Positions 3,001-63,000 of a stretch of 64,000 nt of DNA are shown here, one piece after another; the stretch's first letter is position 1, and each line of letters opens with the position of its first letter. The stretch comes from Corynebacterium jeikeium (GTDB taxonomy: Bacteria; Actinomycetota; Actinomycetes; Mycobacteriales; Mycobacteriaceae). Made by a program: the position numbers and the translations under genes. The notes under the pieces were generated by a model that searched no databases, was not told the DNA's origin, and saw only the letters and a list, made by a program, of their open reading frames with translations. The stretch spans positions 744,001 through 808,000 of the forward strand of contig CP033784.1 of the NCBI GenBank assembly GCA_003955985.1. The letters are read 5' to 3'.

Positions 3001-5478
3001 ATCGCAGGGATGTCAGCACTCGGCGGGGACAATAATCTGCAGCATCGTTTGCATGTGGTGCTGCCGGGTTCACCGAACCGTGGTCGCTTCGGCGGTGATG
3101 GTGCCTATGGGGAAGCCAAGGCCGCACTCGACGCCGTGGTGGCGCGCTGGAATGTGGAGGACGCTTGGCGCACCCGCACCACTCTGGCTCATGCACAGAT
3201 TGGGTGGGTTCGAGGCACCAACCTGATGGGTGGAAACGACCCATTGGTTGCTGCAGTGGAAGCAAAGGGAGTACGCACCTTCTCCACCGAAGAAATGGCA
3301 GCTGAACTCATTGAGCTCGCGAGCTCGGAGGCTCGGAAGAAGGCACAAACCCGCCCGATTCAGGCCGATCTCACCGGCGGATTGGGTGACGTCGACCTCA
3401 ACATTGCGCAATTGGCGCAGGAGGCTGCACAGGCGGCTGCCCCAGCAGCTCAAAACTCTGAGATCTCTAGCGGGGCGCGCTCGCAGGAGCCGTCGTCAAG
3501 CCGTGCTTTGAGCGGCCTGCCAAGCCCACGCCGACCAATTGCGCAGACAACACCGACCTTTGGTGACATCGCAGCGGCTCTGGAGGACATGGTGGTCATC
3601 GTGGGCGCCGGTGAGCTTGGGCCGTACGGTTCTTCCCGGACGCGCTTTGAGGCTGAAGTTGATGATATTTCTGCAGCAGGAATTGTGGAATTAGCCTGGT
3701 CAATGGGGTTGATTTCCTATGAGGGTGGCTGGCGTGACGCCGACGGGCAACCGTTGGCAGAAAGCGACATTGCTTCGCGTTACCGCGATGAAGTGCTGGC
3801 GCGAGTTGGTGTGCGTCGTTACGCCGATGATGGCGATTTGGTTGATAATACGATGACTGAGCTGACCACGGTCTACCTGGATCGTGCGTTGAGCTTTGCT
3901 GTGCGTGACCGCGCGGCAGCGGAGACTTTTGTCAGTTCCAACCCGGACAACACCACTGCGAGCTTCGATGCCGAGACAGGGCAGTGGCTTGTGACACGAG
4001 CCGCTGGCACACCAGTGCAGGTTCCGCGCCGAATGGCGATGAGCCGCTATGTTGGCGGTCAAATTCCGCAGGGCTTTGACCCGGCACGATACGGTATTCC
4101 GGCAGACATGATGGACAATCTGGACCGCGTGAGCTTGTGGAACATTGTCTGTACTGTCGATGCCTTCTTGTCATCGGGCTTCAGCCCAGCGCAACTGCTG
4201 GAAGCGGTCAACCCGGCGCGAGTGTCGTCGACCCAGGGCACAGGTATTGGTGCGATGGAGTCGCTGCGCAGTCTCTACATCGACGGCCTGCTGGGGCAAC
4301 CGCGAGCCAATGACGTCCTGCAGGAGGCATTGCCAAATGTTATTGCCGCCCACGTTATGCAGTCTTATGTCGGTGGCTACGGGCAGATGATTCACCCTGT
4401 CGCAGCCTGTGCGACGGCAGCGGTGTCGGTGGAGGAGGGCGTCGACAAGATTGCCCTGGGTAAGGCAGATTTCGTTGTCGCAGGTGGCTTCGATGACCTA
4501 TCCACAGAGGGAATTACAGGTTTCGGCGACATGGCCGCCACAGCTGACTCCGCCACCATGGAAGACAAAGGCATCGACCATGAGTACTTCTCCAGGCCGA
4601 ACGATCGTCGACGCGGAGGCTTTGTGGAATCGCAAGGCGGTGGCACGGTGCTGTTGGCTCGCGGAGACATCGCTCGTGACATGGGGCTCCCCGTGCTCGG
4701 TGTCGTCGCATACGCCCAGTCCTTCGCCGACGGCGCGCACACGTCCATTCCGGCGCCGGGTTTGGGTGCGCTAGCGGCCGCTCAGGGCGGCGAGAAGTCT
4801 CGATTGGCTCGCGCACTTGCAGTACTCGATGTCACTGCGGATCAGGTCGCGGTGTTGTCCAAGCACGACACCTCGACCAATGCCAACGACCCAAATGAGT
4901 CCGAACTGCATGAACGCATTGCAGATGAACTCGGTCGCGAGCGCTCTAACCCGCTGTTGGTGGTCTCTCAGAAATCGCTGACGGGACACGCTAAGGGTGG
5001 TGCTGCAGCGTTCCAGATCATTGGTCTGACCCAGGTATTGCGCAGCGGCATTGTGCCAGGTAATCGATCGCTGGACTGCGTCGATCCCGCATTGGCTGCG
5101 CATTCGCGTCTGGTATGGCCAACGAAGGCAGTCAATTTCGGCAATACGTTGCCGCTGAAGGCTGGCTTTGTTACCTCGCTCGGGTTCGGACATGTCTCGG
5201 CACTGGTGGCAGTCGTCCATCCGGAAGCTTTCTACCAAGCGATAGTGCAGCACGATGGCGCTGAGGCTGCGGAGCGTTGGCGGTCCGCGGCGCACAACCG
5301 CGAAGCGGCTGGTCTGCGTCGCATTGATGAGGCTATTTACGGTGGGGAAGCTCTCTACGAGCGTCCACGCGAGCGAAACCTGGCGGACGGTGGTCGGTTC
5401 GGTTCACCCGCTGCATTGGAAAAGGCAGTTCTGCTTTCCGACGGCGCCCGTCTGATCGATGGTGTCCTCCAGCCATGA
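1..5478 (+). CDS. fas: Type I fatty acid synthase, C-terminal part (5' end outside window)
   Basis: Multifunctional FAS-I that builds long-chain acyl-CoA in the cytoplasm. The frame is open from base 1, so the enoyl reductase and most of the dehydratase lie upstream. Visible in order: the end of a MaoC-like hydratase (to about nt 200); the malonyl/palmitoyl transferase with FPGQG near 211-230 and the nucleophile motif GHSVGEYN near 517-540; an Ala/Glu-rich linker; the acyl carrier region with DGVSSRRNQ (Ser codons 1681-1686 are the likely phosphopantetheine site, by analogy to fungal FAS carriers); a ketoreductase Rossmann motif VTGASPNSIG near 2610-2640; and the ketosynthase with active Cys codon 4408-4410 (AACATA) and His codons 4864-4866 and 4987-4989 (TGHAKGG). 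The stop overlaps the acpS start by 4 nt, so the carrier-activating enzyme is translationally coupled. Confidence 0.96.
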   Translation, partial: TSDAGIGNRVIEFTATMLSPVLPGQEVKFSVERRGFDDRPGAGEVREVTATVEGELVLTATAVIAAPTTAYVFPGQGIQSQGMGLSARTRSVAARRVWDQADAMTREKLGFSVLAIVRDNPVEVVVDGVRYFHPEGVLNLTQFTQVAMATLGLAQVAELREAGLLDETAHFAGHSVGEYNALAAFAGALDADAALEVVYRRGLTMHELVERDEQGRSNYGLCALRPDKIGVREDEVTEFVNRLSQETGEFLEVVNLNLAGKQYAVAGTVAGLAALAEQCERRSSDGKGYVRIPGIDVPFHSSVLRDGVDSFRKHLERLLPAEITPERLVGRYIPNLTATSFELTEKFVRQMAAVVDSDILEQILADFDTAAENPARLARMLLVELLAWQFCSPVRWIETQDLLLEDLGVSRIIEVGVGTAPTLANLAARTCQLPRHRSRDIRVLNLERDADAVFMRDQIQPEKTELESEVTPEQDTAQALSGAAGETGAAGAAEPAVSVDQLAATEQATTITSAATPAAEVADIAVSPAEALEVLICQWTKVRPDQLGAADSIETLVDGVSSRRNQLLLDLGVEFDLGSIEGAADAELADLKDKIDSLASGYSAFGPILSEAIADGIRRITGPAGAGANYIDDYVADEWQLGKGWATAVSAEIMLGTREGASLRGGDLAHLAPAAPTSTAELNQLIDEAILAVASQRGVSVAKPSASDSSAGMVDSAALTEFADKLTGQRGILATAARTILEQLGHEITGAIDFDAEDADSNLVNLVTAELGADWPKLVTPTFTPTKAVLLDDRWATSRDDLARLWAAADEDVAETAPGSIHETAVEQAQWWAAKADAAGRTQLASIYRQLADESITNVDELSMNADIAVVTGASPNSIGSAVTAQLLSQGATVVVTTSRLGHERLSFYKQLYRMHAQGEAKLWVVPANLSSFQDLDSLIDWIGTEQTTTIGAEVVVTKPALSPTLLFPFAAPTVSGSLADAGPASETQMRLLLWSVERLIAGMSALGGDNNLQHRLHVVLPGSPNRGRFGGDGAYGEAKAALDAVVARWNVEDAWRTRTTLAHAQIGWVRGTNLMGGNDPLVAAVEAKGVRTFSTEEMAAELIELASSEARKKAQTRPIQADLTGGLGDVDLNIAQLAQEAAQAAAPAAQNSEISSGARSQEPSSSRALSGLPSPRRPIAQTTPTFGDIAAALEDMVVIVGAGELGPYGSSRTRFEAEVDDISAAGIVELAWSMGLISYEGGWRDADGQPLAESDIASRYRDEVLARVGVRRYADDGDLVDNTMTELTTVYLDRALSFAVRDRAAAETFVSSNPDNTTASFDAETGQWLVTRAAGTPVQVPRRMAMSRYVGGQIPQGFDPARYGIPADMMDNLDRVSLWNIVCTVDAFLSSGFSPAQLLEAVNPARVSSTQGTGIGAMESLRSLYIDGLLGQPRANDVLQEALPNVIAAHVMQSYVGGYGQMIHPVAACATAAVSVEEGVDKIALGKADFVVAGGFDDLSTEGITGFGDMAATADSATMEDKGIDHEYFSRPNDRRRGGFVESQGGGTVLLARGDIARDMGLPVLGVVAYAQSFADGAHTSIPAPGLGALAAAQGGEKSRLARALAVLDVTADQVAVLSKHDTSTNANDPNESELHERIADELGRERSNPLLVVSQKSLTGHAKGGAAAFQIIGLTQVLRSGIVPGNRSLDCVDPALAAHSRLVWPTKAVNFGNTLPLKAGFVTSLGFGHVSALVAVVHPEAFYQAIVQHDGAEAAERWRSAAHNREAAGLRRIDEAIYGGEALYERPRERNLADGGRFGSPAALEKAVLLSDGARLIDGVLQP

Positions 5479-5879
5479 TTGGCGTAGACCTCGTCTATAT
5501 TCCGGGCTTCGAAGAGCAGCTGAATATGCCAGGAAGTCAGTTCGCGCAGGCTGTTTTCACACCTGCGGAGCTACTGGTAGCTAGGCGCCGCGGAGCAGTC
5601 GGCGGCGCTCTGGCGCGTCACTTAGCGGGCCGCTGGGCTGCGAAGGAAGCCTTCATCAAGGCCTGGTCGCAGACTCTCTTCGGCAGCCAACCGCCGATTG
5701 CGCGCGATCAGCTGGACTGGCGGGAAATAGAGGTGCAGCCGGATGCCTACGGTCGCGTGAGCATCAGTCTCCACGGGGCTGTGAGCCGCCATTTCCACGA
5801 TCAGGAGTGGCAGCTGGGGCCGTCGTTAAGCATCTCGCACGACGGCGACTACGCAATCGCCGTCGTACGCTTGGACTAG
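5475..5879 (+). CDS. acpS: Holo-[acyl-carrier-protein] synthase (AcpS)
   Basis: 134 residues, normal for AcpS. It transfers 4'-phosphopantetheine from CoA to the carrier serine of FAS-I. The family signatures are visible: GVDLV at residues 3-7 (Mg-binding Asp) and RWAAKEAFIKAW near residues 52-63 with the metal-binding Glu, followed by LSISHDGDYAIAVV near the C-terminus. The ATG overlaps the fas stop as ATGA, so expression is coupled to its main substrate. The gene ends 12 bp before a convergent gene, with no clear terminator hairpin between them. Confidence 0.93.
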   Translation: MIGVDLVYIPGFEEQLNMPGSQFAQAVFTPAELLVARRRGAVGGALARHLAGRWAAKEAFIKAWSQTLFGSQPPIARDQLDWREIEVQPDAYGRVSISLHGAVSRHFHDQEWQLGPSLSISHDGDYAIAVVRLD

Positions 5880-5891: not shown

Positions 5892-7652
5892 CTAATCGAC
5901 GGACTTCTGACGGCGACCGACCAAGATGCCGGCACCGAAGATTAGCGCGCCCAGGATTGCGCCGGTTCCGGCGACTGCGGCGGTTTGGAGCGGGGAGTTG
6001 GTCGCGGCCTGCTGAGTCTGCACATCAACTTCGTCGAGGCCATTGCCGGAAGCGTTGGACTTTGCGGAAGCCTTGCCAGATGCCTTGGATGAGCCGCTGG
6101 CCTTGGACTCTCCGGTCTTGGAGGCACCGGTCTTCACAGCTTCTTCGCGTTCCTTGGCGGAGCCGCCGACGCTGAGGTCCGTGGCCGTGTCCTGGCTGCG
6201 GTCGGAGGAACCGTGAGCAGCAAAGGTGTAGAGTGCGCAGTCATTTTCGACGCAGTTGGCGGCCGATGTGACGGCCTCGACATTGAGCGTTGTGGAGAAG
6301 CTGCCGTCGGAGGACATCTGGGAGGTGCGGACAAACTCAGCGGCGGAGAAAGCATCAGCGTTGGTGGTGGAGAACTTGTTCTTCTCAGCCACTGCGACGT
6401 AGATGCCGTTGCCACTGGTCTTGAATCCGGTGCCGGAGACGGTAATTGGGGTGCTGCCCGATGGATTCAGTTCCGTGGTGGACAGGCTTACCGACGGGGT
6501 GCCGGTCGAGGAGCTGCTGCCGTTGGAGCTGCTGGAGCCGCTGGAGGCGCTGGTGCTACTCGTTCCACTAGACCCTGTGCTGCCACTGGTGCCGGAGCTT
6601 GCGCTGCCTGCGGACTGTGAGGAGCCACCGCCGGAGGGCAGGGTAGCGTCCTGCTTGGCAGCTCCGCCGGCAAACGATACCGCGGTCGCCGTGTCCTGGC
6701 TGCGGTCAGAAGAACCGTGAGCAGCAATGGTGTAGACCGAGCAAGCGTTCTGCATGCAGTCTGCCGTGCCGAACTTCGCGCTGACCGGAAGATCCACGCT
6801 GAAGCTGCCGTCGGACTTCAGGTTGCCGCGAGAGGTAGACACAAACTTGGTATCCGGGCCGAAGGAATCGGCGTTGGTCACATCCATCTGGTCATTTTGC
6901 GCGATACCGACGTAGATGCCCGGTCCAGAGGTCTTGAAACCCTTGCCTTCGACTCGAATGGTGTCGCCGCTCGGGTTCAAGTCTGAGGTCTTGGACAGGC
7001 TCACCGATGCGTTACCCCGTGACTGCGACGGTGACTGCGAGCCCGACTGTGACTGGGAGCCCGAACCAGCGCTCTGGCCACCGCTCGGCGCCGCGCCGGT
7101 GGAACCCTGCGATTGAGCAGCCTGGGAAGTAGCACCCGCCTTGAAGGTGATGGGGACCCACTGGTCATTGCTGCGGTCAGAAAGATTAGGGAACGCAGTA
7201 AAGGAGGCTACGTAGCACTGGGTAGAGGTGCAGTCGACATCGCCAAAGCTGGTCGCGACCTTCATCTCCTGCGTAAAACTTCCGTCCGCGCCAACCGTGA
7301 CCTTGGCCGCTTCGCCGTAGGTCGAAGGGTAGCCCGACTTTGGCTTCTCGATTGTCTGGGCCAGGTAAATATTTGCGTTAGCGGGGTAGCCGACTCCCTT
7401 GATGGTCACGGTGGCGCCGTCGGACAGATCGGTGGCAGGGGTCACGGAGAGCTGGCGCTCAGACTGATCGGTGCTGCCGCCGAGAAGGTCGCCGATGCCG
7501 GGGAGCGAACCGCCGAGCTGTCCAATCGATGGCAGTGACTGTGCCGATGCGGGGACTGCGGGTAAAAATCCCGTACTCACTACGATTGCCGAAGCTAAAA
7601 CAATAGAGCGGGGAAGCAGGCTCCGTCGGAAAGCGCCCTGCGTCGTGGACAT
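5892..7652 (-). CDS. Iron-regulated cell-surface protein with three repeated beta domains and C-terminal anchor
   Basis: 586 residues. A Sec signal peptide (residues 1-38, ending PASA-QS) leads to an exported protein. Three related domains of about 110-120 residues follow (about 40-155, 207-325, 385-495). Each has a LNPSG/LSDGATV start, a GIYVGIA or IYLAQ strand, a Cys pair (DC..TQCYVASF, ADCMQNACSVYTIA, ANCVENDCALYTFA) and a DRSQDTA-like end. Linkers are Ser/Gln- and Ser/Gly-rich. A Lys/Ala/Ser stretch, a membrane helix (about 550-575) and RRQK form the anchor. Similar repeats occur in corynebacterial HtaA-type heme-uptake surface proteins, but no canonical HtaA domain is obvious here. The ATG has an AGAGG Shine-Dalgarno 6 nt upstream. 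A DtxR-like box 89 bp upstream supports iron-repressed expression. Binding of heme is an inference. Confidence 0.8.
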   Translation of the reverse strand: MSTTQGAFRRSLLPRSIVLASAIVVSTGFLPAVPASAQSLPSIGQLGGSLPGIGDLLGGSTDQSERQLSVTPATDLSDGATVTIKGVGYPANANIYLAQTIEKPKSGYPSTYGEAAKVTVGADGSFTQEMKVATSFGDVDCTSTQCYVASFTAFPNLSDRSNDQWVPITFKAGATSQAAQSQGSTGAAPSGGQSAGSGSQSQSGSQSPSQSRGNASVSLSKTSDLNPSGDTIRVEGKGFKTSGPGIYVGIAQNDQMDVTNADSFGPDTKFVSTSRGNLKSDGSFSVDLPVSAKFGTADCMQNACSVYTIAAHGSSDRSQDTATAVSFAGGAAKQDATLPSGGGSSQSAGSASSGTSGSTGSSGTSSTSASSGSSSSNGSSSSTGTPSVSLSTTELNPSGSTPITVSGTGFKTSGNGIYVAVAEKNKFSTTNADAFSAAEFVRTSQMSSDGSFSTTLNVEAVTSAANCVENDCALYTFAAHGSSDRSQDTATDLSVGGSAKEREEAVKTGASKTGESKASGSSKASGKASAKSNASGNGLDEVDVQTQQAATNSPLQTAAVAGTGAILGALIFGAGILVGRRQKSVD

Positions 7653-7812: not shown

Positions 7813-8472
7813 CTAGTCTGCGGCCTCCGCGACGCTCATGAGATAAGAGATTGTCATGCGTTTGATTTCCTGCACCGTCAGCTCGTAATGAGCTTCCCGC
7901 TCAGCATCGCTTCCCGGATGGTCCACCGCATAATTCAGCAGGGCGTACGTGGCGTTAATCATGAGGTCGGAGATGAAGTTCAGTTCCGCATCGCTTGACG
8001 ACGGCACCAGCGGGCGCAGCACCTTTGAAATCTCGTTGACCAGGCGTGACTTCGTATCTTCTGCAGTTGCGCGTGTGGCGGGCGTTGATTGAACAGCCAA
8101 CCATACGGCTCTTCTAGAAACGTCCTCGCGCCAGAGCTTTGCCAGGTGATCGATGAACTCCGAGAGAAACTCCGGCCATTTCAAGGTGGGGACTGTTTCT
8201 CCGAAACGTGAGACTTCCTCGATGACGGCCTCAGTGTCCTGACGGTCGAGCTCGCAGATCATCACATACTTGTTTGCGAAGAATTGGTAGAGCGTGCCAA
8301 TGGGGATATCTGCGATGCGAGCGACTTCGTCGAAAGTGAAAGACTCAAACCCGTGCTCGATGAGCACTGTGCGTGCCGAGCTGAGCATGCGTGCGTACCG
8401 CTCTCGGCTGCGTTGCTGAGCCGGAGTGCGACGGGGACGAAGAATATTCGGTGCGTCCTGGGATTGAGTCAC
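7813..8472 (-). CDS. TetR-family transcriptional regulator
   Basis: 219 residues with a GTG start. The N-terminal helix-turn-helix region reads FTFDEVARIADIPIGTLYQF (about residues 45-64), the standard TetR DNA-binding fold, after a basic RRTPAQQRSRERYARM stretch. The remaining helical domain would bind an unknown ligand. It lies upstream of the DtxR-boxed surface-protein gene on the same strand, but the iron box between them argues for separate control. The target is unknown; autoregulation or control of a neighbour is possible. Confidence 0.85.
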   Translation of the reverse strand: MTQSQDAPNILRPRRTPAQQRSRERYARMLSSARTVLIEHGFESFTFDEVARIADIPIGTLYQFFANKYVMICELDRQDTEAVIEEVSRFGETVPTLKWPEFLSEFIDHLAKLWREDVSRRAVWLAVQSTPATRATAEDTKSRLVNEISKVLRPLVPSSSDAELNFISDLMINATYALLNYAVDHPGSDAEREAHYELTVQEIKRMTISYLMSVAEAAD

Positions 8473-11629: not shown

Positions 11630-12313
11630 CTAATCACCCAACATTCCCAGCTCCTGCGCGCGAGCAACAGCCGCGGTGCGGGAGCTGACGCCTAGCTTGG
11701 TGAAAATATGTACCAGATGCGATTTCACAGTCGCTTCGGTGAGCACCAGCTGTTCTGCAATTTTTCTATTCGACATACCCCGCGCGACCAACTCGAGCAC
11801 TTCGAGTTCGCGCGGGGTTAGTGCTGTATTGGGGTTGCGCATCCGCCCCATCAAGCGCCCGGCCACTTGTGTGTTCAGCACGGTCTCGCCGCGAACGGCA
11901 CGACGGATACCATCGATGAGCTCCTCCGGAGCGGCATCCTTCAGCAGATAACCAACTGCGCCTGCGGTGACAGCGCCGAGCACATCGGAGTCCGAAGAAT
12001 AATTGGTCACCACCAACACTTCTGGGGCCTTTGCGCCGCGCCCGGCCAGTGCGCGGATGGCTGCGGTGGCATCAACTCCGCCTGCGCGGGTAGCAGTGCC
12101 AGGGGCCTCACCAAAGCGAAGGTCCATGAGTACCAGATCGATGTGGTCGCAAGAGTCGTCGTCAAGCGATGCGCGCACCTTCTCGACCGCCTCGTCGCCG
12201 CTGGCCGCCTCGCCAACCACGACGATATCCGGCGCCGATTCAACGACTGCGCGAAGACCAGCGCGGACGATGGGGTGATCGTCGGCGATGAGGACTCCGA
12301 TGGGCTTGGTCAC
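11630..12313 (-). CDS. chrA: Heme-responsive two-component response regulator, ChrA-like (NarL/LuxR)
   Basis: 227 residues. The receiver domain (DDHPIVRAGLRAVVESA at residues 11-27; phospho-acceptor Asp in LMDLRFG near residue 67; Lys in YLLKDAAPEE) is followed by a LuxR helix-turn-helix (TPRELEVLELVARGMSNRKI, then TEATVKSHLVHIF). The MDLRFG motif is shared with the corynebacterial heme regulators ChrA and HrrA. It follows the sensor kinase gene by 61 bp on the same strand, and the pair is divergent from an hrtBA-type exporter, the arrangement of ChrSA in C. glutamicum and C. diphtheriae. It should activate hrtBA when heme is in excess. The name rests on family and context; HrrA is the alternative. 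Confidence 0.78.
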   Translation of the reverse strand: MTKPIGVLIADDHPIVRAGLRAVVESAPDIVVVGEAASGDEAVEKVRASLDDDSCDHIDLVLMDLRFGEAPGTATRAGGVDATAAIRALAGRGAKAPEVLVVTNYSSDSDVLGAVTAGAVGYLLKDAAPEELIDGIRRAVRGETVLNTQVAGRLMGRMRNPNTALTPRELEVLELVARGMSNRKIAEQLVLTEATVKSHLVHIFTKLGVSSRTAAVARAQELGMLGD

Positions 12314-12374: not shown

Positions 12375-13580
12375 TTAAGAGGCGAGCTCGTGCGGGATGC
12401 TGACGCTGACACCGCAGCCACGCCCCGGTTCCGACTCGATGGTGAAGGTGCCGCCGAGCTTCTCCACGCGTCGGCGCGCGTTGGCGATCCCCACGCTGTC
12501 GTCGTTAGTTGGTGCGGTGGGGTCGAAGCCGATGCCGTTGTCGACGCAGTCGAGCAGAATCTCGTCGGGCTGGTAGGTCAGGGTGACACGGCAACGCGTG
12601 GCGTGTGCATGCTTGACGACGTTCGCCAAGCTCGCCTGGGCCACCCTGATGATGGTTGCTTCGACGGTGGCCGGCAGCCGCGTGGGTGTGCCGTCGACGC
12701 AGAAGCTGACAGCATCGCCCAGCACCGTGGAGGAGCAGACTTTCTCCAACGCACCGGATAGGTCTGCGCCTTCGAGGGGAGCCGGCTGAAGTGCTGCGAT
12801 GATGCGCCGGGTCTCGGCGAGATTGTCGGCCGCAACCTTGCGGGCGAGCTGTAGCGAATCCACCGAGGTCTGGTCATGCTGAGTGGGAGCACTTTTCATG
12901 CGGGACTCCACCGAATGCAGCAGCAGCTGGATGGAGGAAAGCCCCTGCGCCACGGTGTCATGAATATCGGCTGCGAGGCGTGCGCGTTCGTCCAGCTCAC
13001 CGGCACGACGGGACAGTGCTTCCGAGTGGGCGCGGGCAGCTGAGAGCTCCTCCAGCGCCTTGGTCTTTTCGATAGTCTCCTTCTGCAGGAGCCGGAACCC
13101 CAGCCCCACCGTGAGTACAAACGTCCCACCCAGAATGGGGCCGAGGACACCACCAAATGTTAGCGGAGTATGGATAGCGATGGCGCCAATTGCCGTCGCC
13201 GTTGTCGCCGCCACCATGATTACGGCCATAAGGCCGCCGGTTACCTGCAAAATTACGAAAAACAGTGGGAAAACCAGGAACGAGGCGTCCAGCGTTGCAA
13301 ACGCCAACGCCGCCCAGCACAGCAGCAGAATCACAAGCCAGCCCAACAGCAGGCCACGCGGCTTAGTCAGCGCGACCTCGTTGGCTACGTTGCCATGCCG
13401 AGCCCGACCAATCGGCCCGACCGAACCTGCGATGTACACCGCTAGAAAGCACGCCGCATAGGTGATGATTCGCCACTGCGGATCCGGAACCACGCATACC
13501 GCCAGCAGCACCAGCACCAAAACATCCAGGGCAAACCGCAGTAATTGCCAGCTGCGATTCAGGGTCTCAGGAGTATCCAC
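12375..13580 (-). CDS. chrS: Heme-responsive sensor histidine kinase, ChrS-like
   Basis: About 401 residues from GTG 13580 (start of VDTPETLN); an upstream in-frame start at 13670 would add 30 residues and overlap the divergent gene, so I prefer the shorter form. The N-terminal half holds several hydrophobic segments (about six membrane helices) without a large external domain, fitting sensing within the membrane as proposed for ChrS. The HisKA_3 phospho-acceptor is in ADIHDTVAQGLSSIQ. The HATPase domain has NVVKHAHATRC (N box), DNGIGFD (G1) and EPGRGCGVSVSIP (G2). Paired with the ChrA-like regulator. One GTCGTNAAGC copy lies inside, encoding VVK. Confidence 0.77.
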   Translation of the reverse strand: MDTPETLNRSWQLLRFALDVLVLVLLAVCVVPDPQWRIITYAACFLAVYIAGSVGPIGRARHGNVANEVALTKPRGLLLGWLVILLLCWAALAFATLDASFLVFPLFFVILQVTGGLMAVIMVAATTATAIGAIAIHTPLTFGGVLGPILGGTFVLTVGLGFRLLQKETIEKTKALEELSAARAHSEALSRRAGELDERARLAADIHDTVAQGLSSIQLLLHSVESRMKSAPTQHDQTSVDSLQLARKVAADNLAETRRIIAALQPAPLEGADLSGALEKVCSSTVLGDAVSFCVDGTPTRLPATVEATIIRVAQASLANVVKHAHATRCRVTLTYQPDEILLDCVDNGIGFDPTAPTNDDSVGIANARRRVEKLGGTFTIESEPGRGCGVSVSIPHELAS

Positions 13581-13711: not shown

Positions 13712-14746
13712 ATGAGTATGTACCAGTCAATGAAAGAACTTCGAGCCGCTCCAGGCCGTGCCGCACTGATCACCATCACCGTCGGCATGATTGCTGTGAT
13801 GGTCACGTTCCTCTCGGCTTTGGCTGCCGGACTGTCAGCCCAGTCCGTCTCCGCACTTGACGAGGTCTACGGCAAAAACGACGCCGTCGTCATCTCGGAG
13901 GGGGCTACGTCGCTGTCGTCGTCAAGCATCGGCGAGACGGCGCGAAAGAGCGTCCAGACGTGGGCGAACGATAACAACGCCACCATCCGCGATGTCTACG
14001 TCAGTCGTGCGCGCGTCGATGAAACGCCCGTCACCGTCATCTCCGACTTTTCGCTTAACGACGACCAGGTGGCCGTCACCGACGGTGTCAGTGAAACCGC
14101 CATTGCGGAAGGTGACTCGCTGACCCTGTCTGGCGCGATGGGCGAGCACGAGGCCACCGTTGCGCGCGTGGCGGGGGATAAGTGGTTGGACCACCAAGCG
14201 GTCATTTATGCCGGGCGCGGTGTGATGGAAGACCTGACACCGGGGCAGATGGTGCCGGCGGCGATGGTTGTCGACGAGTCTGCGACGCAGCTGCCGAATG
14301 TCCCGGAAGGAACAATTCTGCGCGACGGCGAGCGCAATAACCTGTCGGCTTCCTATCAGGGCGAGCAGACCTCGCTGAACGCGATGACCTCGATGCTGTA
14401 TGTGATTTCTGCGCTGGTGGTAGGCGCGTTCTTCACAGTGTGGACTGTTCAACGACTGCGTGGTGTGGCCATTTCCTCGGCGCTCGGTGCGTCCCGCTCC
14501 GTGCTGGTGGCTGACTCTCTGGCGCAGGTCCTGGCCGTGCTGGCAATCGGAGTCGGCGGCGGTGTTGCGGTGACTGCAGCGGCGGGCTGGGCTCTGCAGA
14601 GCGGCGACGTCATGCCAATTGTGGTCGATGCTTCCACGACCGTCGTGCCGGGGCTCATTCTGGCCGTGACCGGCGTAGTTGGTGCGCTGCTGGCACTGGT
14701 GCCGGTATTCCGCGTCGATCCGACCACCGCATTGGCGAATGCGTAG
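13712..14746 (+). CDS. hrtB: Heme exporter permease, HrtB-like (FtsX fold)
   Basis: 344 residues from ATG 13712 (MSMYQSMKEL). An earlier in-frame start at 13634 would run into the chrS promoter region. One membrane helix near residues 17-40, a periplasmic domain of about 200 residues, and three C-terminal helices (MLYVISALVVGAFFTVW, DSLAQVLAVLAIGVGG, STTVVPGLILAVTGVVGALL): the MacB/FtsX layout, and the length of HrtB. With the downstream ATPase it would pump heme out of the membrane. It is divergent from the ChrSA-like pair that should activate it. Two GTCGTNAAGC copies lie inside (13918 and 14053). Confidence 0.78.
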   Translation: MSMYQSMKELRAAPGRAALITITVGMIAVMVTFLSALAAGLSAQSVSALDEVYGKNDAVVISEGATSLSSSSIGETARKSVQTWANDNNATIRDVYVSRARVDETPVTVISDFSLNDDQVAVTDGVSETAIAEGDSLTLSGAMGEHEATVARVAGDKWLDHQAVIYAGRGVMEDLTPGQMVPAAMVVDESATQLPNVPEGTILRDGERNNLSASYQGEQTSLNAMTSMLYVISALVVGAFFTVWTVQRLRGVAISSALGASRSVLVADSLAQVLAVLAIGVGGGVAVTAAAGWALQSGDVMPIVVDASTTVVPGLILAVTGVVGALLALVPVFRVDPTTALANA

Positions 14747-14848: not shown

Positions 14849-15643
14849 ATGACTACCTACATCGACAACCAGGCTCCCGTGGCACTCGCTCTAAAGAACA
14901 TCTCGCTGACCGTCCAAGATGGCGACAACAAACGCACCATTTTGGATGACATCTCGCTGAAGATCCGGGCAGGCGAGGTAGTGGGACTGGTCGGACCATC
15001 GGGTTCCGGCAAGTCGACTCTGTTGACCATCGCAGGTTGTTTGAAGAGTGCCGATACCGGACATGTCACGCTGTACTCCAACAAACAGGACGCGAACGGT
15101 GCAGGCGCGGACGAGAGTGCGGAAAGGAAGGCCATTGATTTGAGCGCTCGCGGCGCGGATGCTGCCAAGATTCGTCGCGAACACATCGGTATTGTTTTCC
15201 AGCAGCCGAATCTTCTGCCAGCGCTGACGGTTAAGCAGCAGCTCATCGCAATGCGGCGACTGGGCCGTGTTTTCGGGTGGCCCGCGGGTGGCCGTCGTGA
15301 AGCGGAGAAGCGCGCGGATGAGCTGCTAGAGGCAGTCGGACTGGCTGGGCTGGGAGAACGTCGCGTGAGCCAGCTTTCCGGTGGTCAGCAGGCGCGCGTC
15401 AATGTTGCGCGCGCACTGATGAATGAGCCGGAAGTGCTGCTAGTCGACGAACCGACCGCGGCTTTGGATCAGAAGAGTGCAGGGGCGGTGACGCGACTGA
15501 TTATGGATGTGACGCGGAAGATGGGTGTGGCCACCCTGTACATCACCCACGACCTGGGGCAGCTCCACGGTGCCGACCGAATCGTGGAGATGGTTGACGG
15601 CAAGCTGCAGTCCGCGGATGCAGGCTTGGTGGCTACTCGGTAG
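14849..15643 (+). CDS. hrtA: Heme exporter ATP-binding protein, HrtA-like
   Basis: 264 residues. ABC ATPase with Walker A GPSGSGKST (about residues 50-58), Q loop VFQQPN, signature LSGGQQARVNVARAL, Walker B VLLVDEPTAAL and H-loop ITHD. It belongs to the MacB/LolD group that pairs with FtsX-like permeases. A direct repeat GAGGAATTGAGGAATTGAGG precedes the ATG and supplies the ribosome site. It is 102 bp behind hrtB, so both form a two-gene export operon. The gene ends about 95 bp before the IS30-like element, so whatever originally lay downstream has been displaced. Confidence 0.8.
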   Translation: MTTYIDNQAPVALALKNISLTVQDGDNKRTILDDISLKIRAGEVVGLVGPSGSGKSTLLTIAGCLKSADTGHVTLYSNKQDANGAGADESAERKAIDLSARGADAAKIRREHIGIVFQQPNLLPALTVKQQLIAMRRLGRVFGWPAGGRREAEKRADELLEAVGLAGLGERRVSQLSGGQQARVNVARALMNEPEVLLVDEPTAALDQKSAGAVTRLIMDVTRKMGVATLYITHDLGQLHGADRIVEMVDGKLQSADAGLVATR

Positions 15644-18843: not shown

Positions 18844-18984
18844 ATTACCGCATTAAAGGAGCTGTATTCTCAGCTCATCTCTGCAGCGAACTATATGGTA
18901 GCCCACAGTGGGCTGGAAACAAAAACAGCAGGTCAACCCGGATAAATTTGGGAAAGGGTGGGGTTTGGGTCGTCGTAAAGCGAG

Positions 18985-20564: not shown

Positions 20565-20571
20565 GAAGTAA

Positions 20572-20616: not shown

Positions 20617-20618
20617 TT

Positions 20619-27119: not shown

Positions 27120-27120
27120 C

Positions 27121-27151
27121 GTCGTTAAGCTGATTTTGCATGCTTGACGAC
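27121..27151. repeat. Inverted pair of the GTCGTNAAGC motif
   Basis: GTCGTTAAGC (27121-27130) and GCTTGACGAC (27142-27151) face each other over 11 bp, starting 2 bp behind the stop codon of the CopD/CtaG-like gene. They could form a 10-bp stem with one mismatch. Confidence 0.7.
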
Positions 27152-27188
27152 GAGGATTGCCGCGACTTCGCCCCTCAACTTCATACGT

Positions 27189-50263: not shown

Positions 50264-50436
50264 ATGGGGACATGGTCTCTTTGGAGTGCTGCGCACTGGC
50301 CGTCGTAAAGCACCGGGCGAGATCGCGTGAAATTCGCCTCGCCCCTGGCGTGGAAGCCGGTATTTGCGCACACTCACGGTAGGCTGGTCTGAAGCAGTTA
50401 TTGGCAACGAAGCGGAAAGGCGGCGGCGGGAGCCTC

Positions 50437-53822: not shown

Positions 53823-53961
53823 ATTTTGCGCGGTAATCGCGGTTTGGCTCGGAGCGGGAGAAAGGCTTGAATTAGGCGGTGTATAAGTCGCTGATGGCAG
53901 ATATGGGTGGGGCGCAAGGGCCGTCGTAAAGCCCCTGGAAAACCAAATCCGGGCAAGGCGC

Positions 53962-53974: not shown

Positions 53975-56710
53975 GTGACTGAGAACAACGTGGACCTAAA
54001 CAGAGCAGATAAGTTGCCCAAGTCGTGGAACCCGGCTGACGTGGAGTCGGACCTGTACCAGGGCTGGGTAGACGCTGGCTATTTCGAGGCTGATCCGTCT
54101 AGCTCCAAGCCGGCTTACTCTATTGTGCTGCCCCCGCCGAATGTGACGGGTCAGCTGCACATGGGCCACGCACTGGACCACACTTTGATGGATGCGCTGG
54201 TGCGCCGTAAGCGCATGCAGGGCTACGAGGTGCTGTGGCTGCCGGGTATGGACCACGCGGGTATCGCAACGCAGACCAAGGTCGAGGCGATGCTGAAGGA
54301 GTCCGAAGGTAAGGACCGCTTCGATTACGGCCGCGAGGAATTCGTGGAGAAGGTCTGGGAGTGGAAGCACGATTACGGCGGACGTATCGGCAACCAGATG
54401 CGCCAGATTGGTGACTCCCTGGATTGGTCACGTGAGCGCTTCACTCTGGACGAGGGCCTGTCCCGTGCGGTTCAGACGATTTTTAAGGAACTGTTTGACC
54501 GCGGCCTGATTTACCGCGCCAAGCGCATGGTCAACTGGTCGCCAGTGCTGCAGACTGCAATCTCGGATATTGAGGTCAAGTACGAGGACGCTGAAGGCGA
54601 GCTCGTGTCTTTCCGCTACGGCGATGGGGAGGACTCCATTGTTGTGGCGACGACTCGTGTGGAGACGATGCTGGGTGACGTGGCAATTGCCGTGCACCCG
54701 GAGGATGAGCGCTACACGCACCTGGTGGGCAAGGTTCTGGACCACCCGTTCCGCGAGGACCTGAAGATTCAGGTCATCGCCGATGACTACGTGGACCGCG
54801 AGTTCGGTACCGGCGCGGTGAAGATCACGCCGGCGCACGATCCGAATGACTTCGCTATGGGCCAGCGCCACGACCTGGATATGCCGGAGGTCATCGACAC
54901 CACTGGCCGTATCTTCAACACTGGCACGCGTTTCGACGGCATGGATCGTGCAGAGGCCCGTACTGCGCTGACGGAGGCGCTGCGTGAGCAGGGACGCATT
55001 GTCAAGGAGATTCGCCCGTATGTTCACTCGGTTGGTCACTCGGAGCGCTCGGGTGAGCCGATTGAGCCGCTGCTGAGCTTGCAGTGGTTCGTTAAGGTCG
55101 ATGAGCTGGCCAAGATGTCCGGCGATGCTGTTCGCGAGGGCGACACGGTTATTCACCCGGCTTCGCAGGAGCCGCGCTGGTTCGACTGGGTCGATGACAT
55201 GCACGACTGGTGTATTTCCCGTCAGCTGTGGTGGGGCCACCGCATCCCGATCTGGTACGGCCCGAATGGCGAGGTCGTCTGTGTCGGCCCGGATGATGAG
55301 GTCCCGACGGGCGACGGCTGGACGCAGGATCCGGATGTGCTGGATACCTGGTTCTCCTCTGCGCTGTGGCCGTTTTCCACGATGGGTTGGCCGGACGCCA
55401 CCCCAGAGCTGGAGAAGTTCTACCCGACATCCGTGCTGGTCACCGGCTACGACATTCTGTTCTTCTGGGTCGCGCGCATGATGATGTTCTCGACCTTTGC
55501 TGCCACCCTGCCTGATTCACCGCTGGGCAAGGGTCGCGACGGTCGTCCGCAGGTGCCGTTCAAGGATGTCTTCCTGCACGGTCTGGTCCGCGATGAGCAG
55601 GGTCGCAAGATGTCGAAGTCTCTCGGCAACGGCATTGACCCGCTGGACTGGGTGCGTGATTACGGTGCGGACGCACTTCGCTTCACGCTGGCTCGTGGCG
55701 CTAACCCGGGCTCTGACCTGCCGGTCGGTAACGACGCCGCACAGAGCTCCCGTAACTTCGCTACCAAGCTGTTCAACGCCACCCGCTTTGCACTGATGAA
55801 CGGTGCCCACGTGGGCGAGCTGCCGGACCGTGACCAGCTCACCGACACCGACCGCTGGATCTTGGACCGCCTGGAACAGGTCCGCGCCGAAGTCGACTCT
55901 GCGCTGGATAAGTACGAGTTCTCCAAGGCCAACGAGGCCCTCTACCACTTCGCATGGGACGAGGTCTGTGACTGGTACCTGGAGATGACCAAGGTTGACT
56001 TCCCACGCCTGAATGACGGCGAGACCATGACCGAGGAGCAGGCCGCCCGAGCCGCCTCCACTCGTCTGGTTCTAGGCCGCGTGCTGGATACGCTACTGCG
56101 TCTGCTACACCCGTCCATGCCGTTCGTCACGGAGACGCTGTGGAAGGCGCTTACCGACGGCGCGGAGGGCTTCGAGGACTCTCTGGTTATTTCCGCCTGG
56201 CCGGATGCAACCATGACCACCGACGGCGCTGCTGTTGATGAGGTTGCCGCACGTCGTATTGCCGATGCCCAGAAGTTGGTCACCGAGCTGCGTCGTTTCC
56301 GCAATGACCAGGGTGTGAAGCCGTCGCAGCGCGTGCCGGCACGCATGAACCTGGCGGATGCTGATCTGACTGCTCAGGAAGAGATGATTCGTTCGCTGGC
56401 TCGTGCTGAGGCACCGGAGGACGGCTTCACCGCTACCGCTTCCATTGAGGTGCGCCTGTCTCAGGCCACGGTCCTGATCGAGCTGGATACCTCCGGCACC
56501 GTCGACGTGGCCGCTGAACGCAAGCGCCTGGAAAAAGACCTGGCCAAGGCCGAGAAGGAACTGGCCGGCACCGAAAAGAAGCTCGGCAACGAGGCCTTCT
56601 TGTCCAAGGCTCCGGAGCAGGTCGTGGAGAAGATCAAGACTCGCCACCAGTTCGCACTGGAGGAAATTGACCGCATTAAGGCTCGTTTGGAGGGACTTCC
56701 GCAGGCATGA
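53975..56710 (+). CDS. valS: Valyl-tRNA synthetase
   Basis: 911 residues from GTG 53975. Class Ia synthetase that charges tRNA-Val and edits Thr. HIGH-type motif in [20 protein letters not shown] (about residue 50), editing domain with [25 protein letters not shown] motif in [20 protein letters not shown] (about residue 547), anticodon-binding helical domain, and a C-terminal coiled coil ([20 protein letters not shown]) as in bacterial ValRS. The stop overlaps the folC start as ATGA, so valS, folC and DUF4233 form one coupled operon. Confidence 0.96.
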
Positions 56711-58440
56711 CCGAACCACGGGATATCGAACCTCGGGGTGCTGAATCACACGATGAGATTGCAGGGGAGATTCGTTTGAATCTTGGTGGCGGCGACGATT
56801 CGGTGACGCAGGAAGAGTCTGCGCTGCGAGAGGAGTCCACTGCAGCGCCTGAGTTCGAATTCGATCCGGCTGACTCCCAGATCGTCGAGGACCTCGAACC
56901 TCGCGAAATCGCCGGTGTGATGGCTGATGACCGCATGCCCGATGACATGCGCCTCGGTGAGGTCTCCGTGTCCGAGGAAGGCCTGAGCCTGCCGGTGGAT
57001 GTGGATCGCCCAGTCAATGAGCCGGCTCCGCTGGAGGCCACCGCCGAGGAGCTGCGCGAGCTCGCAGAGGTGGAAGCCGAGCTGGATCAGCGCTGGCCGG
57101 AGACCAAGATTGACCCGTCGCTCGAGCGAATCGAGATGCTGATGGACATCCTTGGCCATCCTGAGCGTGCCACTCCGGTCATTCACGTTGCCGGCACGAA
57201 TGGCAAGACTTCCACTGTGCGCATGATTGAGTCGCTGGTGCGCGCTCTCGGTCGTCGCACCGGCCGCACCACCAGTCCGCATCTGCAGCTGGTTACCGAG
57301 CGCATCGCCATCGATGGCCAGCCCATTCATCCACGCGATTACGTGCGCATCTGGCGCGAGATTCAGCCCTACGTGGAAATGGTTGACGCCAAGTCCGCCG
57401 AAAAGGGCGGCCCGCAGATGAGTAAGTTCGAGGTCCTCACGGCCATGGCCTACGCTGCCTTCACCGACGCTCCTGTCGATGTCGCCGTGGTGGAAGTCGG
57501 CATGGGTGGCACATGGGATGCGACCAACGTGGTGGAGGCCGACGTGGCAGTCATCTGCCCAATCGGTCTCGATCACACGGAGTACCTCGGCGATACCCTG
57601 GCTGAAATCGCTTCTGAGAAGGCCGGCATCATCAAGTCGCGGTGGAACAAGGACGACTTGCTCACGCCACCGGACAATGTCGCCATTGTCGGCGAGCAAG
57701 AGCCGGAAGCAATGGACGTCGTTTTGCGACGTGCCGTGGAAATGGACGCCTCCGTCGCCCGCGCTGGAGTTGAGTACGGCGTCGTCAGTCATCAGCTGGC
57801 GGTCGGCGGGCAGAACCTGACGCTCAAGGGCCTGGCCGGCGAGTATGACGACATCCATCTGCCGCTGCACGGTCCGCATCAGGCGCGTAACGCAGCCACA
57901 GCACTGGCTGCGGTGGAGGCGTTCTTCGGCGCAGGTCCGGGGCGTCCGCTCAACATTGATGCGGTTCGCGAAGGCTTTGCGACGGTCGCATCGCCCGGCC
58001 GCCTGGAGCGCGTGCGTTCGACCCCGACGGTGTTTATCGATGCCGCCCACAATCCGCACGGTGCCCGTGCGCTACGCACGGCCCTCTCCGCTGAGTTCGA
58101 CTTCCGCCGTGTGATTGGTGTGCTGTCGGTGCTGGGGGAGAAGGATGCTCGTGGGCTGCTGGTGGAGCTGGAGCCTTACTTCGAAGAAGTGGTTATTACC
58201 CAGAACACATCGCCGCGTGCGCTGCACTACGACGACCTGGCTGACCTCGCGGAGGAGATTTTCGGCGAGGAGCGCGTGCATCGCGTACCGACTCTGCCGT
58301 CCGCCGTTGAGCTAGCTGTAGCGCTGGCTGAGGAAACCGACACCGGAGACGGTATTGTCTCTGGTTCCGGTGTGATCGTCACTGGATCTGTTGTCACTGC
58401 GGGCGAAGCCCGGACACTATTTGGAAAGGACCCGCAATGA
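56707..58440 (+). CDS. folC: Folylpolyglutamate synthase/dihydrofolate synthase, with acidic N-terminal extension
   Basis: 577 residues, about 130 longer than typical FolC. Adds glutamates to folates (and makes dihydrofolate). The first 130 residues are acidic and without a known fold ([39 protein letters not shown]). The catalytic Mur-ligase part follows: [21 protein letters not shown]-loop [16 protein letters not shown] near residue 160, [36 protein letters not shown], and C-terminal [14 protein letters not shown]. The start is fixed by the ATGA overlap with valS; an internal start after the extension would lack that coupling. Confidence 0.94.
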
Positions 58441-59036: not shown

Positions 59037-59447
59037 ATGACTGAACGTACTCTTATTCTGATCAAGCCGGACGGCGTTTCCCGCGGTCTGGTCGGCGAAG
59101 TTATCTCCCGCATTGAGCGTAAGGGCCTGAAGCTGGTCGCGCTTGACCTCCGTGTTGCTGACGAGGCAACTGCGAAGGAGCACTACGCAGAGCACGTCGA
59201 TAAGCCGTTCTTTGGTGAGCTGGTTGATTTCATCACCTCTGCACCGCTGGTCGCTGGTGTTATCGAGGGCCCGAACGCAATCGCTGCTTGGCGTCAGCTT
59301 GCTGGCGGCACCAACCCGGTTGAGGCCGCAACTCCGGGCTCCATTCGCGGTGACTTCGCACTTGAGGTTGCTAACAACGTTGTTCACGGTTCCGATTCTC
59401 CGGAGTCCGCTGAGCGCGAGATTGGTATTTGGTTCCCGAACCTCTAA
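59037..59447 (+). CDS. ndk: Nucleoside diphosphate kinase
   Basis: 136 residues from ATG 59037 ([13 protein letters not shown]). Moves the gamma phosphate from ATP to other NDPs through a phospho-His. Landmarks: [20 protein letters not shown] at the N-terminus, [40 protein letters not shown] and active His in [18 protein letters not shown] start codon 12 nt earlier is before the likely transcription start. Ends in a clear terminator. Confidence 0.96.
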
Positions 59448-59487: not shown

Positions 59488-59531
59488 CGCCGAACTGAGC
59501 AAGCAATTGTTTGCCGGTTCGGCGCTTTTTG
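59488..59531 (+). terminator. Terminator of ndk
   Basis: GCGCCGAAC/GTTCGGCGC with an internal loop (GAGC..GTTTGCCG), followed by TTTTT. Confidence 0.85.
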
Positions 59532-59585
59532 CTTGTCGACGACCGTGGGGCGGCCCTTCAGCGGGCTGCACGTGTGAATGCGGGC

Positions 59586-60018: not shown

Positions 60019-63000
60019 GTGGCAAATTTCAGCCAGGATGTTGTCGCTAAGGCACGCGAATTTGATCGTGAGTCAGCGGCTCTGAAAACCCGAGTCCACC
60101 ACCTGGCCAAGAGCTTGGGGTTGACCTCGAAGGAAACCATCGAAGCACTGGGGCACGCGGGGATCGTCGTAAAGTCCGCTGCGTCCACCATTAATCAAAA
60201 TCAGCTCGACGCAGTGCTGAATTTCATCGGTGATCATCCAGAGGATGCCTCGCTTGACGACGGATCCGCTGCGACCAAGCCAACCGGCGAAAAGCCAGCC
60301 GCGAAGGAAAAACAGTCGGCAGGTAAGCCGAACGCGGCAGATGAGAAGTCGGACGAGCAAACTGCAGCTAAGTCCGAGAAGAAGCCAGCTGCGAAGAAGA
60401 GCGGCAAGAAGTCGGCTGCGAAGAAGGCCACAAAGAAGGCTGCGCCGAAGGCAGCCAAGAGCGAAGCGGAGTCGGACGCAGCGCCTGCCGAGGAAGTGAC
60501 CGAGAAGAAGGACACCAAGAAGGCCTCGGCTAGAAAATCCTCGGCAAAGCAGAGCGCAGAGAAGCAGAGCGCAGAGAAGCAGAGCACGACTAAGAAGCGA
60601 GCAACGCGTAAGCGGGCTGTGAAGAAGACCGCTGGCGCTCCGGAAGAAACCGCTGCGAAGGACGAGCAGAAGGACTCGAACTCGGTCGTCGAGGAAGCTG
60701 TTGAGGCTGTCGTTCAGTCGTCGTCGAAGAAGGCTGCAGACAAGAATGCTTCCGATAAGAAGGCTGCCGACACCGTAGCCGAGACCGCTGAGAAAACCTC
60801 CGCTGAGGAAGCTTCCGCCGAAGCACCTGCTGCAAAGAGCGCTGCAGTGACCACACGTCGTGGCCGCCGAGTTCGCCGTGCGGTCCGCACGACCAGCGCT
60901 CCAGTGGCAGAGGAAGCTCAGGAAGCGCAAGAGCCGCAGAAAACGCAAGAGCCGCAGGATACGCAGGCAACTCAGAGCGAAGCCCTGCAAGACATCGAGC
61001 CGCCGGTAGTCCCGGAGCCGCCGGTTGCGGAAGAGCAGACCGCGTTTGCGCCTATCTTCCTGGCGCCGCAGGCTGTCCCGGCTACGGCCAAGAATTCGGC
61101 CACCGAGGATGCAGCTTCAGCTGACAACGGGGCCTCCAACCAGGGCACCGATGACAACGCGGGGGAGGGGCAGGACGGCTCGTCGTCAAGCGAAACGGAG
61201 CGTCAGCCGCGCCCGCGTCGTCGCCGTCGTGGACGTGGGCGTCGTAATGATGACGCGCAACAGGCGGAGAAGACCACCGAAAACACAGAGCGCGAGGAAG
61301 AGGAAACCCGCGAAGAGGTCGAGGAACCGCAGGCGATTAAGGGATCGACTCGCCTGGAGGCGCAGCGACGTCGCCGTATCGAGCGTCGTGAGGAATCGCG
61401 CAAGCGCCATGTAATCTCGGAGGCGGAATTCCTGGCTCGTCGTGAGTCGGTGGAGCGCACGATGGTGGTGCGTGAGCGCAAGCGCCATGACCACGCGGGC
61501 ATTGTCACTGAGGTGGGTGTGCTGGAAGATGACCTGCTGGTCGAGCACTTCGTTACCTCTGACACGCAGACCACGCAGATCGGCAATATCTACCTCGGTC
61601 GCGTGCAGAACGTCCTGCCCAGCATGGAAGCGGCGTTCATCGATATCGGAACCGACCGCAACGGTGTCATTTACGTAGGTGACCTGAACTGGAAGCTGCT
61701 GGGCACGAAGTCGCGTTCGCGCAAGATTGAACATGCGCTGAAGGCCGGCGACCAGATTTTGGTCCAGGTGTCCAAGGACCCGATTGGTCACAAGGGTGCG
61801 CGTCTGACCACCCACATTTCGATGGCTGGTCGATTCCTGGTGTACGTGCCGGGCGGCCGGAGCGCGGGTATTTCCCGCAAGCTGCCGGAGCCGGAGCGCA
61901 AGCGCCTGAAGTCGATTCTGAGCGAGGTTACGCCGGAGGGCTCGGGCACGATTATCCGTACCGCAGCCGAGGGTGTGTCCAAGGAGGCCATCGAGGCCGA
62001 CATCAAGCGCTTGGAGTCGCAGTGGCAGGAGATCTGGGAAGCCTCCGAGGCAGCGAAGGCGAAGCGTGGAGCAAAGCCGATTGCGCTGTACGAAGAGCCA
62101 GACATGCTGGTCAAGGTCGTCCGCGACGTCTTCAACGAGGACTTCTCGCGTCTCGTGGTGGAGGGCGATCGCCCGTGGAACACAGTGACGGACTACATCG
62201 GCGACCTGGCACCAGAGCTGGAGCCGCGACTGCAGCGCTACTTCGCCAAGGAGCACGGCGGCGCTGATGTCTTCGAGCACTTCCGCATCGATGAGCAGCT
62301 GGCCAAGGCACTCGACCGCAAGGTCTGGCTGCCTTCGGGCGGCACGCTGGTCATCGACCGCACCGAGGCCATGACGGTCATCGACGTCAACACCGGTAAG
62401 TTCACCGGCGCTGGCGGAAACCTGGAAGAGACGGTCACTCGCAACAACCTGGAGGCCGCTGAGGAAATCGTCCGCCAGATGCGTCTGCGCGATCTGGGCG
62501 GCATGATTGTCGTCGATTTTATCGACATGATGCTGCCGGAAAACCAGGACTTGGTGCTGCGCCGTCTGAAGGAGGCCCTGGGCCGCGACCGCTCGCGTCA
62601 CGAGGTCTCCGAGGTCACCTCGCTCGGCCTCGTCCAGATGACTCGCAAGCGTCTGGGCACAGGCCTGCTGGAGACCTTCTCCACGCCGTGTAGCTGCTGC
62701 AATGGCCGCGGTCTGATTATCCACATCGATCCGGTTGAGCAGGACAATCAGGGCCGTGGCCACAAGAATGGCCGTCGCAACGACGAGCAGGACAAGTCCA
62801 AGCGCCGCAACAAGTCGCGCTCGGAGCACAATCCGGCCAACCACCCGGCCGCGCTGGCCATGCACCGCGATCAGAGCGACCAGGCAGGCTCTTCCAAGGC
62901 AACGCGTGACGACGACACGGAGACCAACCAGCGCGATAAGGACGCAGCCGACAAGCGTGTCGCAGCTGCTGTCGAAGCTGTCATCGTCTCTTCTGAGAAC

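Follow-up and report, generated by a model that had tools for sequence, protein, structure and literature searches.

A dispersed two-part word with dialects in Corynebacterium chromosomes as a candidate DNA uptake sequence

Some bacteria choose the DNA that they import by a short word that labels it as their own. DNA uptake sequences (DUS) and their dialects have been described for Neisseriaceae (Frye et al. 2013, PMC3630211, accessible part), and in the accessible text of PMC12616744 only Neisseriaceae and Pasteurellaceae are named as families with an uptake sequence. The subject here is the word CGTCGNNAAGC on the chromosome of Corynebacterium jeikeium, studied from a stretch of 64,000 nucleotides (the window), together with a second spelling, CATCGNNAAGC, in related species. 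An earlier note on the window had drawn attention to a shorter form, GTCGTNAAGC, and had offered three ideas: a chromosome-organising site of the type of FtsK orienting polar sequences (KOPS), a Chi-type site, and an uptake-like sequence. The last is now the best supported of the three. With a probability of about 0.6, CGTCGNNAAGC and its dialect are a DNA uptake sequence of Corynebacterium, because of the density and symmetry of the sites, the dialects and their rewriting in place, the thinness on plasmids, the patchiness in the genus, and the import genes. Many species of this genus inhabit human skin and mucosa.

Form, enrichment and orientation of the word

All 20 exact copies of GTCGTNAAGC given by the earlier note (13 plus, 7 minus) were found at their places, while 0.60 copies are expected from dinucleotide shuffles and none of 100 shuffles reached 20. 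The complete genome of 2,528,170 bases, in which the window is C1:744001-808000, has 325 + 343 = 668 copies versus 21 + 28 = 49 of the reversed word. The base before GTCGTNAAGC is C in 20 of 20 window copies and in 99% of 110 sampled copies, and GTCGTNAAGC is the subset of CGTCGNNAAGC having T as the first spacer base. In a gapped-word scan with eight masks of our own choice, made on 464 kb of the source genome (the window and 20 stretches of 20 kb), CGTCGNNAAGC came first by far, with 280 copies vs 8.8 expected. On the whole genome of 2.53 Mb it is present in 767 + 807 = 1574 copies, and its reversed word in 35 + 31 = 66. The window holds 36 sites, and the density is one per 1.6 kb rather than about one per 3 kb as given earlier.

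The word is an asymmetric 11-mer of bipartite 5-2-4 architecture with a variable spacer. The spacer is exactly two bases long: this length gives 280 copies, and spacers of 0-1 or 3-7 bases give 8 to 16. Its use is uneven (GC 56, TC 53, AC 29, TA 27, and others). The 27 single-base variants total 274 copies vs 184 expected and show little enrichment outside position 9, which is relaxed (CGTCGNNACGC, 53 vs 8.8 expected), also in genomes G027 and G016 and, in the other dialect, in G143. Variants at position 1 fall short of expectation (5 vs 19.4). A weak G-rich flank reaches up to base -17, non-coding sites included. Literature searches, with subscription papers mostly outside reach, returned no description of the CGTCGNNAAGC word in Corynebacterium; the accessible part of PMC5217627 gives, for three Corynebacterium genomes, pairs of clustered regularly interspaced short palindromic repeats only.

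The word is selected as DNA and not as protein, and the corresponding statement of the earlier note stands. Its density is 0.61/kb in called genes vs 0.58/kb outside (214 and 65 sites, 1 overlapping), on rough gene calls from a simple codon-usage script that left 24% of bases non-coding, probably too many. When synonymous codons were shuffled within the 298 called genes, the 214 copies fell to a mean of 14.6 and a maximum of 26 (100 shuffles), and the 72 copies of GTCGTNAAGC to a mean of 6.6. A frequency close to a codon-preserving null, which the earlier note had named as refuting its proposal, was thus looked for, and the word lies far above that null. In the Ser-Ser frame, A or G at the variable spacer position gives TAA or TGA, which may contribute to the intergenic placing of A-spacer copies stated in the earlier note.

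The orientation of CGTCGNNAAGC has no polarity: 131 sites in the 464 kb are leading and 149 lagging, with the replichore boundary at 1.33 Mb as read by us from GC skew in samples. The spacing is slightly more even than random, with a coefficient of variation of 0.875 vs 0.985 (standard deviation 0.058; 2.1% of 2000 simulations as low), and 32 gaps below 300 bp were observed vs 47 in simulation.

Distribution in the genus, dialects and plasmids

The genus sample comprised 201 Corynebacterium genomes (designated by G numbers, and their loci by L numbers), namely the source genome and 200 drawn from the larger genus. Its assignment to Corynebacterium is supported by a stretch of 13.5 kb in one of the genomes that matches a C. 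tuberculostearicum record with full identity. At least 280 copies of CGTCGNNAAGC were counted in 139 genomes and fewer than 140 in 62, with none between; in most chromosomes examined the number ranges from hundreds to nearly two thousand. Ten of the 62 low genomes have 625-1184 copies of CATCGNNAAGC, three have 159-213, and in 49 neither word is enriched. The three intermediate genomes are G072, G083 and G200, whose sets are possibly decaying; T2SSF was not found in G072, where TadA was found, and ComEC was not found in G200. The word is restricted to Corynebacterium within the order sample, as no comparable enrichment of CGTCGNNAAGC was seen in its 149 genomes of 55 other genera (top ratio to the reversed control 1.64). 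In samples of about 23 kb from named species, CGTCG is carried by C. striatum, C. minutissimum, C. tuberculostearicum, C. propinquum, C. pseudodiphtheriticum, and C. silvaticum; C. phoceense has seven CATCG sites and one CGTCG, and few sites were seen in C. ulceribovis (3), C. marambiense (1), and others. In the scan of 10 of the 49 motif-free genomes, over 14 to 100 kb each, there was no other enriched word of this kind. Motif-free G119 (68% GC; loci L053-L055, L077, L117) has a weak excess of CGTCGNNGAG, which may be due to codon use at this GC content or may be another dialect.

The two spellings, CGTCG (CGTCGNNAAGC) and CATCG (CATCGNNAAGC), are one base apart and occur in related species. 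In G006 and G110, which are poor in CGTCG, the top enriched word is CATCGNNAAGC, with 46 and 43 copies per 100 kb vs 2.4 and 2.2. G142 is mixed, with 1337 CATCG and 352 CGTCG copies. The G004 clade of seven genomes uses CGTCG and retains 118-152 CATCG copies, above most CGTCG genomes. It is placed inside the CATCG group by a tree of three proteins, computed with a short search and with several long branches unsure, and appears to have switched back to CGTCG, which is not certain.

Sites from the comEC and Tad loci were compared between the G004 clade (CGTCG) and the G006 clade (CATCG), which are about 78-81% identical around the sites. Of 27 CGTCG sites in G004, 21 mapped to G006, where 15 read CATCGNNAAGC, none CGTCGNNAAGC, and six neither. 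In the opposite direction, 18 of 20 sites mapped, with 15 reading CGTCGNNAAGC, none CATCGNNAAGC, and three neither. Among 400 random 11-mers taken as control, 308 mapped, and the eight other fixed positions were all kept in 76. When every genome of one clade was paired with every genome of the other, so that the same sites recur, switched sites numbered 270 of 424 and 270 of 364, and unswitched ones 0 and 12; comparisons inside the CGTCG clade showed 800 of 922 kept. For the mixed G142, eight of 10 CATCG sites mapped to G004, four being switched and four lost. In this pair of sister clades, the old sites were retained and one base was changed at nearly all of them, that is, the set was rewritten in place. 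This is what a changed taste of a single reader would produce. It would be hard to explain by selection site by site, and would follow easily from biased import and recombination.

On nine plasmids from motif-rich species, of which three were cut at 50 kb, 10 sites were counted over 292.6 kb, where 4.6 are expected from a Markov model. Chromosome from the same species group carries 159 sites in 295.5 kb, so the plasmids are 16 times thinner, in a comparison whose chromosomal samples are partly orthologous loci of related species and not independent. Seven of the 10 plasmid sites are at 5.8-13.1 kb of pTP10; by annotation, the tetAB genes hold two, and the other five are at 9.7-13.3 kb, with mshC containing three of the five. 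This stretch of pTP10 is probably of chromosomal origin. A plasmid of C. striatum has two further sites at 15.4-15.8 kb, at aminoglycoside acetyltransferase and sensor kinase genes, and the last is in mobF of a C. kefirresidentii plasmid.

Import genes and the weighing of readings

Genes for DNA import are present throughout the genus sample. ComEC was found in 200 of the 201 genomes, DprA in all 201, T2SSF in 193, and TadA in 197, the other four being fragmented assemblies; a few of the TadA matches are weak or split and some contain a stop codon. In a loose search, all 30 Tad loci examined contained TadE, TadF and Flp, and 29 of the 30 comEC loci contained ComEA. These genes make import possible and do not tell which genomes have the motif: the presence of ComEC, T2SSF, TadA and DprA gave no clean split between motif and motif-free genomes, and neither in Tad loci (20 genomes) nor in comEC loci (30 genomes) was there a cluster in all motif genomes and in no motif-free ones. 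With the four genomes lacking a match excluded, the best TadA match is weaker than 1e-140 in 37 genomes, 30 of them motif-free. The remaining seven are three with 280-301 copies and four richer ones whose matches are split or very weak (G021, G100, G111, and G118). The weak TadA among motif-free genomes may reflect ancestry only. The sole genome without a ComEC match, G200, is 90% complete and one of the three with remnants, and motif-free G194 has a stop in ComEC.

Two observations concern the surroundings of comEC. G088, with 1692 copies, has a comEC locus (L103) where comEA was not detected and other genes adjoin comEC. In several genomes (loci L081-L090 and L109-L114), a gene which we take to be that of a Dam-type adenine methylase stands with a companion near comEC, and the two are perhaps a restriction system. 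The companion cluster is present in eight of eight CATCG, four of 15 CGTCG, and one of seven motif-free genomes.

If the word is an uptake sequence, its reader would be an uptake receptor, and biased uptake would be the driving force. A putative DNA receptor on the cell surface would bind the word and thereby give DNA of the cell's own kind preferred entry, most likely by a Tad pilus with ComEA and ComEC and then DprA and RecA. Import with recombination would favour copies matching the receptor, and perfect sites would accumulate along the whole chromosome and on both strands; a one-base shift in receptor preference would rewrite the set in place. The whole scenario has slightly better than even odds: it would place sequence-specific uptake outside Proteobacteria, with the core chromosome of Corynebacterium labelled by a two-part word that an importer built on the Tad pilus reads, and with a one-base change of taste that rewrote hundreds of sites, may have separated sister species genetically, and was followed in one clade by a return to the older spelling.

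Several results weigh against an uptake sequence. ComEC, Tad and DprA are present in motif-free genomes too, and the machinery does not predict the motif. Genomes G001 (1618 copies), G113 (1152) and also G111 (495) are rich with a split ComEC match. A search of protein columns linked to dialect gave one in TadE, none in TadF and Flp, two in ComEA and eight in ComEC, with no receptor found; unrelated neighbours gave three (HolA), four (helicase) and 15 (DegV), and the pilins and ComE proteins are not above these. Divergence is not reduced near the sites, being 0.086 at 8-60 bp vs 0.072, the lowest value, beyond 800 bp. Close pairs are rare (6 of 259 gaps at most 80 bp, five of these in opposite orientation, including the window pair 27120-27152), whereas they are common for DUS and for uptake signal sequences (USS). 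Distant genome pairs map few sites and none is kept (G110 to G143, 4 of 11; G110 to G004, 2 of 11), which leaves the switch test no power there.

A Chi-like recombination hot-spot word, recognised by AdnAB or another end-processing enzyme of actinobacteria, would agree with a frequent, dispersed chromosomal word largely missing from nine plasmids, which may lack Chi too. It is unlikely, as RecC (PF04257) was absent from all 201 genomes, with the E. coli control positive (the search was aimed at RecC, and none at AdnAB), as orientation is unbiased, and as almost all of the kept sites would each have needed their own selection to swap dialect. Chi of E. coli is orientation-biased, and known Chi words are shorter than CGTCGNNAAGC. 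A RecBCD Chi site, with neither RecC nor an orientation bias towards replication, is rejected, and the Chi-type idea of the earlier note is contradicted by the same two results. A chromosome-organising or polar site, bound by the KOPS reader, SMC or a nucleoid protein, is quite unlikely. Dispersal, slightly even spacing and thinness on plasmids would suit it, but there is no replichore polarity, which speaks against a KOPS-type role, and in 49 of 201 genomes of one genus neither spelling is enriched. Housekeeping DNA translocases are expected in motif-free genomes too, and to our knowledge sites of this type do not usually change dialect by the hundreds. The KOPS-type polar site, also put forward earlier, is rejected since orientation does not follow the replichore, and the genomes with neither spelling contradict it as well.

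Quite as improbable is a self-recognition mark by which a defence system spares the chromosome, with no DNA import involved. The word is on chromosomes, thin on the nine plasmids, and patchy between species with dialects, as such a mark could be, but the analysis, which included no search for defence genes, tied none to the motif. Simple restriction systems protect by methylation, with no enrichment of a 9-base word. That the word is a by-product, whether of a bias in codons or amino acids or of a repeat family, is very improbable. This reading has in its favour that 124 of 214 coding copies use one frame, Leu-X-Asp, and such a preferred frame is expected for a word that has to fit into proteins. 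Codon bias as the cause is rejected by the codon shuffle; the similar density in non-coding DNA, the flanks with only a weak G-rich trend, and the joint dialect switch of kept sites also stand against a by-product.

Sites in the window and relation to described systems

The sites of the window are listed in Table 1. The site-free gaps at 15.3-19.0 kb and 42.5-47.2 kb have transposase genes inside: an IS30-like transposase at 15813-17219 adjoins a mutator/IS256-like one at 17391-18641, and another mutator-like transposase lies at 45298-46611, with no CGTCGNNAAGC site in any of them. The longest site-free gap, 18982-27119, includes at 21889-24154 a DUF3800 gene and three small open reading frames without Pfam match. 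It is not simply an island, because ordinary genes (exonuclease, TetR regulator, CopD/CtaG protein) are also there.

Table 1. CGTCGNNAAGC sites in the window. All rows come from the CGTCGNNAAGC scan; "earlier copy" marks sites also among the 20 GTCGTNAAGC copies of the earlier note.
Site	Position	Strand	Basis
CGTCGGCAAGC	2111..2121	+	CGTCGNNAAGC scan
CGTCGTCAAGC	3491..3501	+	earlier copy (3492)
CGTCGGAAAGC	5433..5443	-	CGTCGNNAAGC scan
CGTCGTTAAGC	5821..5831	+	earlier copy (5822)
CGTCGGTAAGC	6486..6496	-	CGTCGNNAAGC scan
CGTCGGAAAGC	7624..7634	+	CGTCGNNAAGC scan
CGTCGTCAAGC	7993..8003	-	earlier copy
CGTCGTCAAGC	12157..12167	+	earlier copy
CGTCGTCAAGC	12611..12621	-	earlier copy
CGTCGTCAAGC	13917..13927	+	earlier copy
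CGTCGTTAAGC	14053..14063	-	earlier copy
CGTCGTGAAGC	15293..15303	+	earlier copy
CGTCGTAAAGC	18971..18981	+	earlier copy
CGTCGTTAAGC	27120..27130	+	earlier copy; head-to-head pair with 27142 site
CGTCGTCAAGC	27142..27152	-	earlier copy; second arm of inverted pair with 27120 site
CGTCGAGAAGC	28740..28750	-	CGTCGNNAAGC scan
CGTCGGGAAGC	30699..30709	-	CGTCGNNAAGC scan
CGTCGAAAAGC	31067..31077	+	CGTCGNNAAGC scan
CGTCGTCAAGC	32020..32030	+	earlier copy
CGTCGCCAAGC	34703..34713	-	CGTCGNNAAGC scan
CGTCGACAAGC	35556..35566	+	CGTCGNNAAGC scan
CGTCGTCAAGC	37348..37358	+	earlier copy
CGTCGCGAAGC	39755..39765	-	CGTCGNNAAGC scan
CGTCGTAAAGC	40181..40191	-	earlier copy
CGTCGAAAAGC	41392..41402	+	CGTCGNNAAGC scan
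CGTCGTCAAGC	42471..42481	-	earlier copy
CGTCGTAAAGC	47194..47204	+	earlier copy
CGTCGTAAAGC	50301..50311	+	earlier copy
CGTCGTAAAGC	53922..53932	+	earlier copy
CGTCGGTAAGC	56149..56159	-	CGTCGNNAAGC scan
CGTCGCAAAGC	57974..57984	-	CGTCGNNAAGC scan
CGTCGATAAGC	59195..59205	+	CGTCGNNAAGC scan
CGTCGACAAGC	59531..59541	-	CGTCGNNAAGC scan
CGTCGTCAAGC	60252..60262	-	earlier copy
CGTCGTCAAGC	61181..61191	+	earlier copy
CGTCGCAAAGC	63896..63906	+	CGTCGNNAAGC scan

We know of no Corynebacterium described as naturally competent, and the literature search turned up no paper describing one. An uptake sequence here would mean that natural transformation is frequent in the genus; it would help to explain the sharing of core genes and give a handle on the receptor. 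Judged by the accessible part of PMC12616744, it would be the first beyond Neisseriaceae and Pasteurellaceae, coming from a different phylum and probably relying on a different type of pilus. How uptake word and receptor co-evolve can be tested directly on close sister clades whose dialects are opposite. Should the reader turn out not to be an importer, some factor still reads from hundreds to more than a thousand sites in each genome of most of the species studied.

Like KOPS and Chi, the Corynebacterium word is dispersed, non-palindromic and over-represented; KOPS and Chi are usually strand-biased relative to replication, unlike this word (131:149). Micrococcus luteus belongs to the same phylum as Corynebacterium. 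Uptake of DNA by a Flp/Tad pilus is reportedly found in it (PMC6370729, PMC6667448), and a pilus of the same kind may import DNA in Corynebacterium; a preferred DNA word for M. luteus was not mentioned in the accessible parts of the literature search results. DUS and USS often form many inverted pairs as terminators, a trait which is not defining, and the few close gaps counted above differ from this. The USS of Pasteurellaceae differ in sequence and host phylum from the Corynebacterium word, and are like it a short enriched word with subtypes (PMC12616744, accessible part). Compared with the DUS of Neisseriaceae, the Corynebacterium word is in another phylum, unrelated in sequence and bipartite (5-2-4) with a variable spacer, and has rare close inverted pairs and no ComP-like receptor found. 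It resembles DUS, as given in the accessible part of PMC3630211, in a length of about 10-12 nt, in one to several thousand copies, in dialects between related species, and in some members of the family being without the word.

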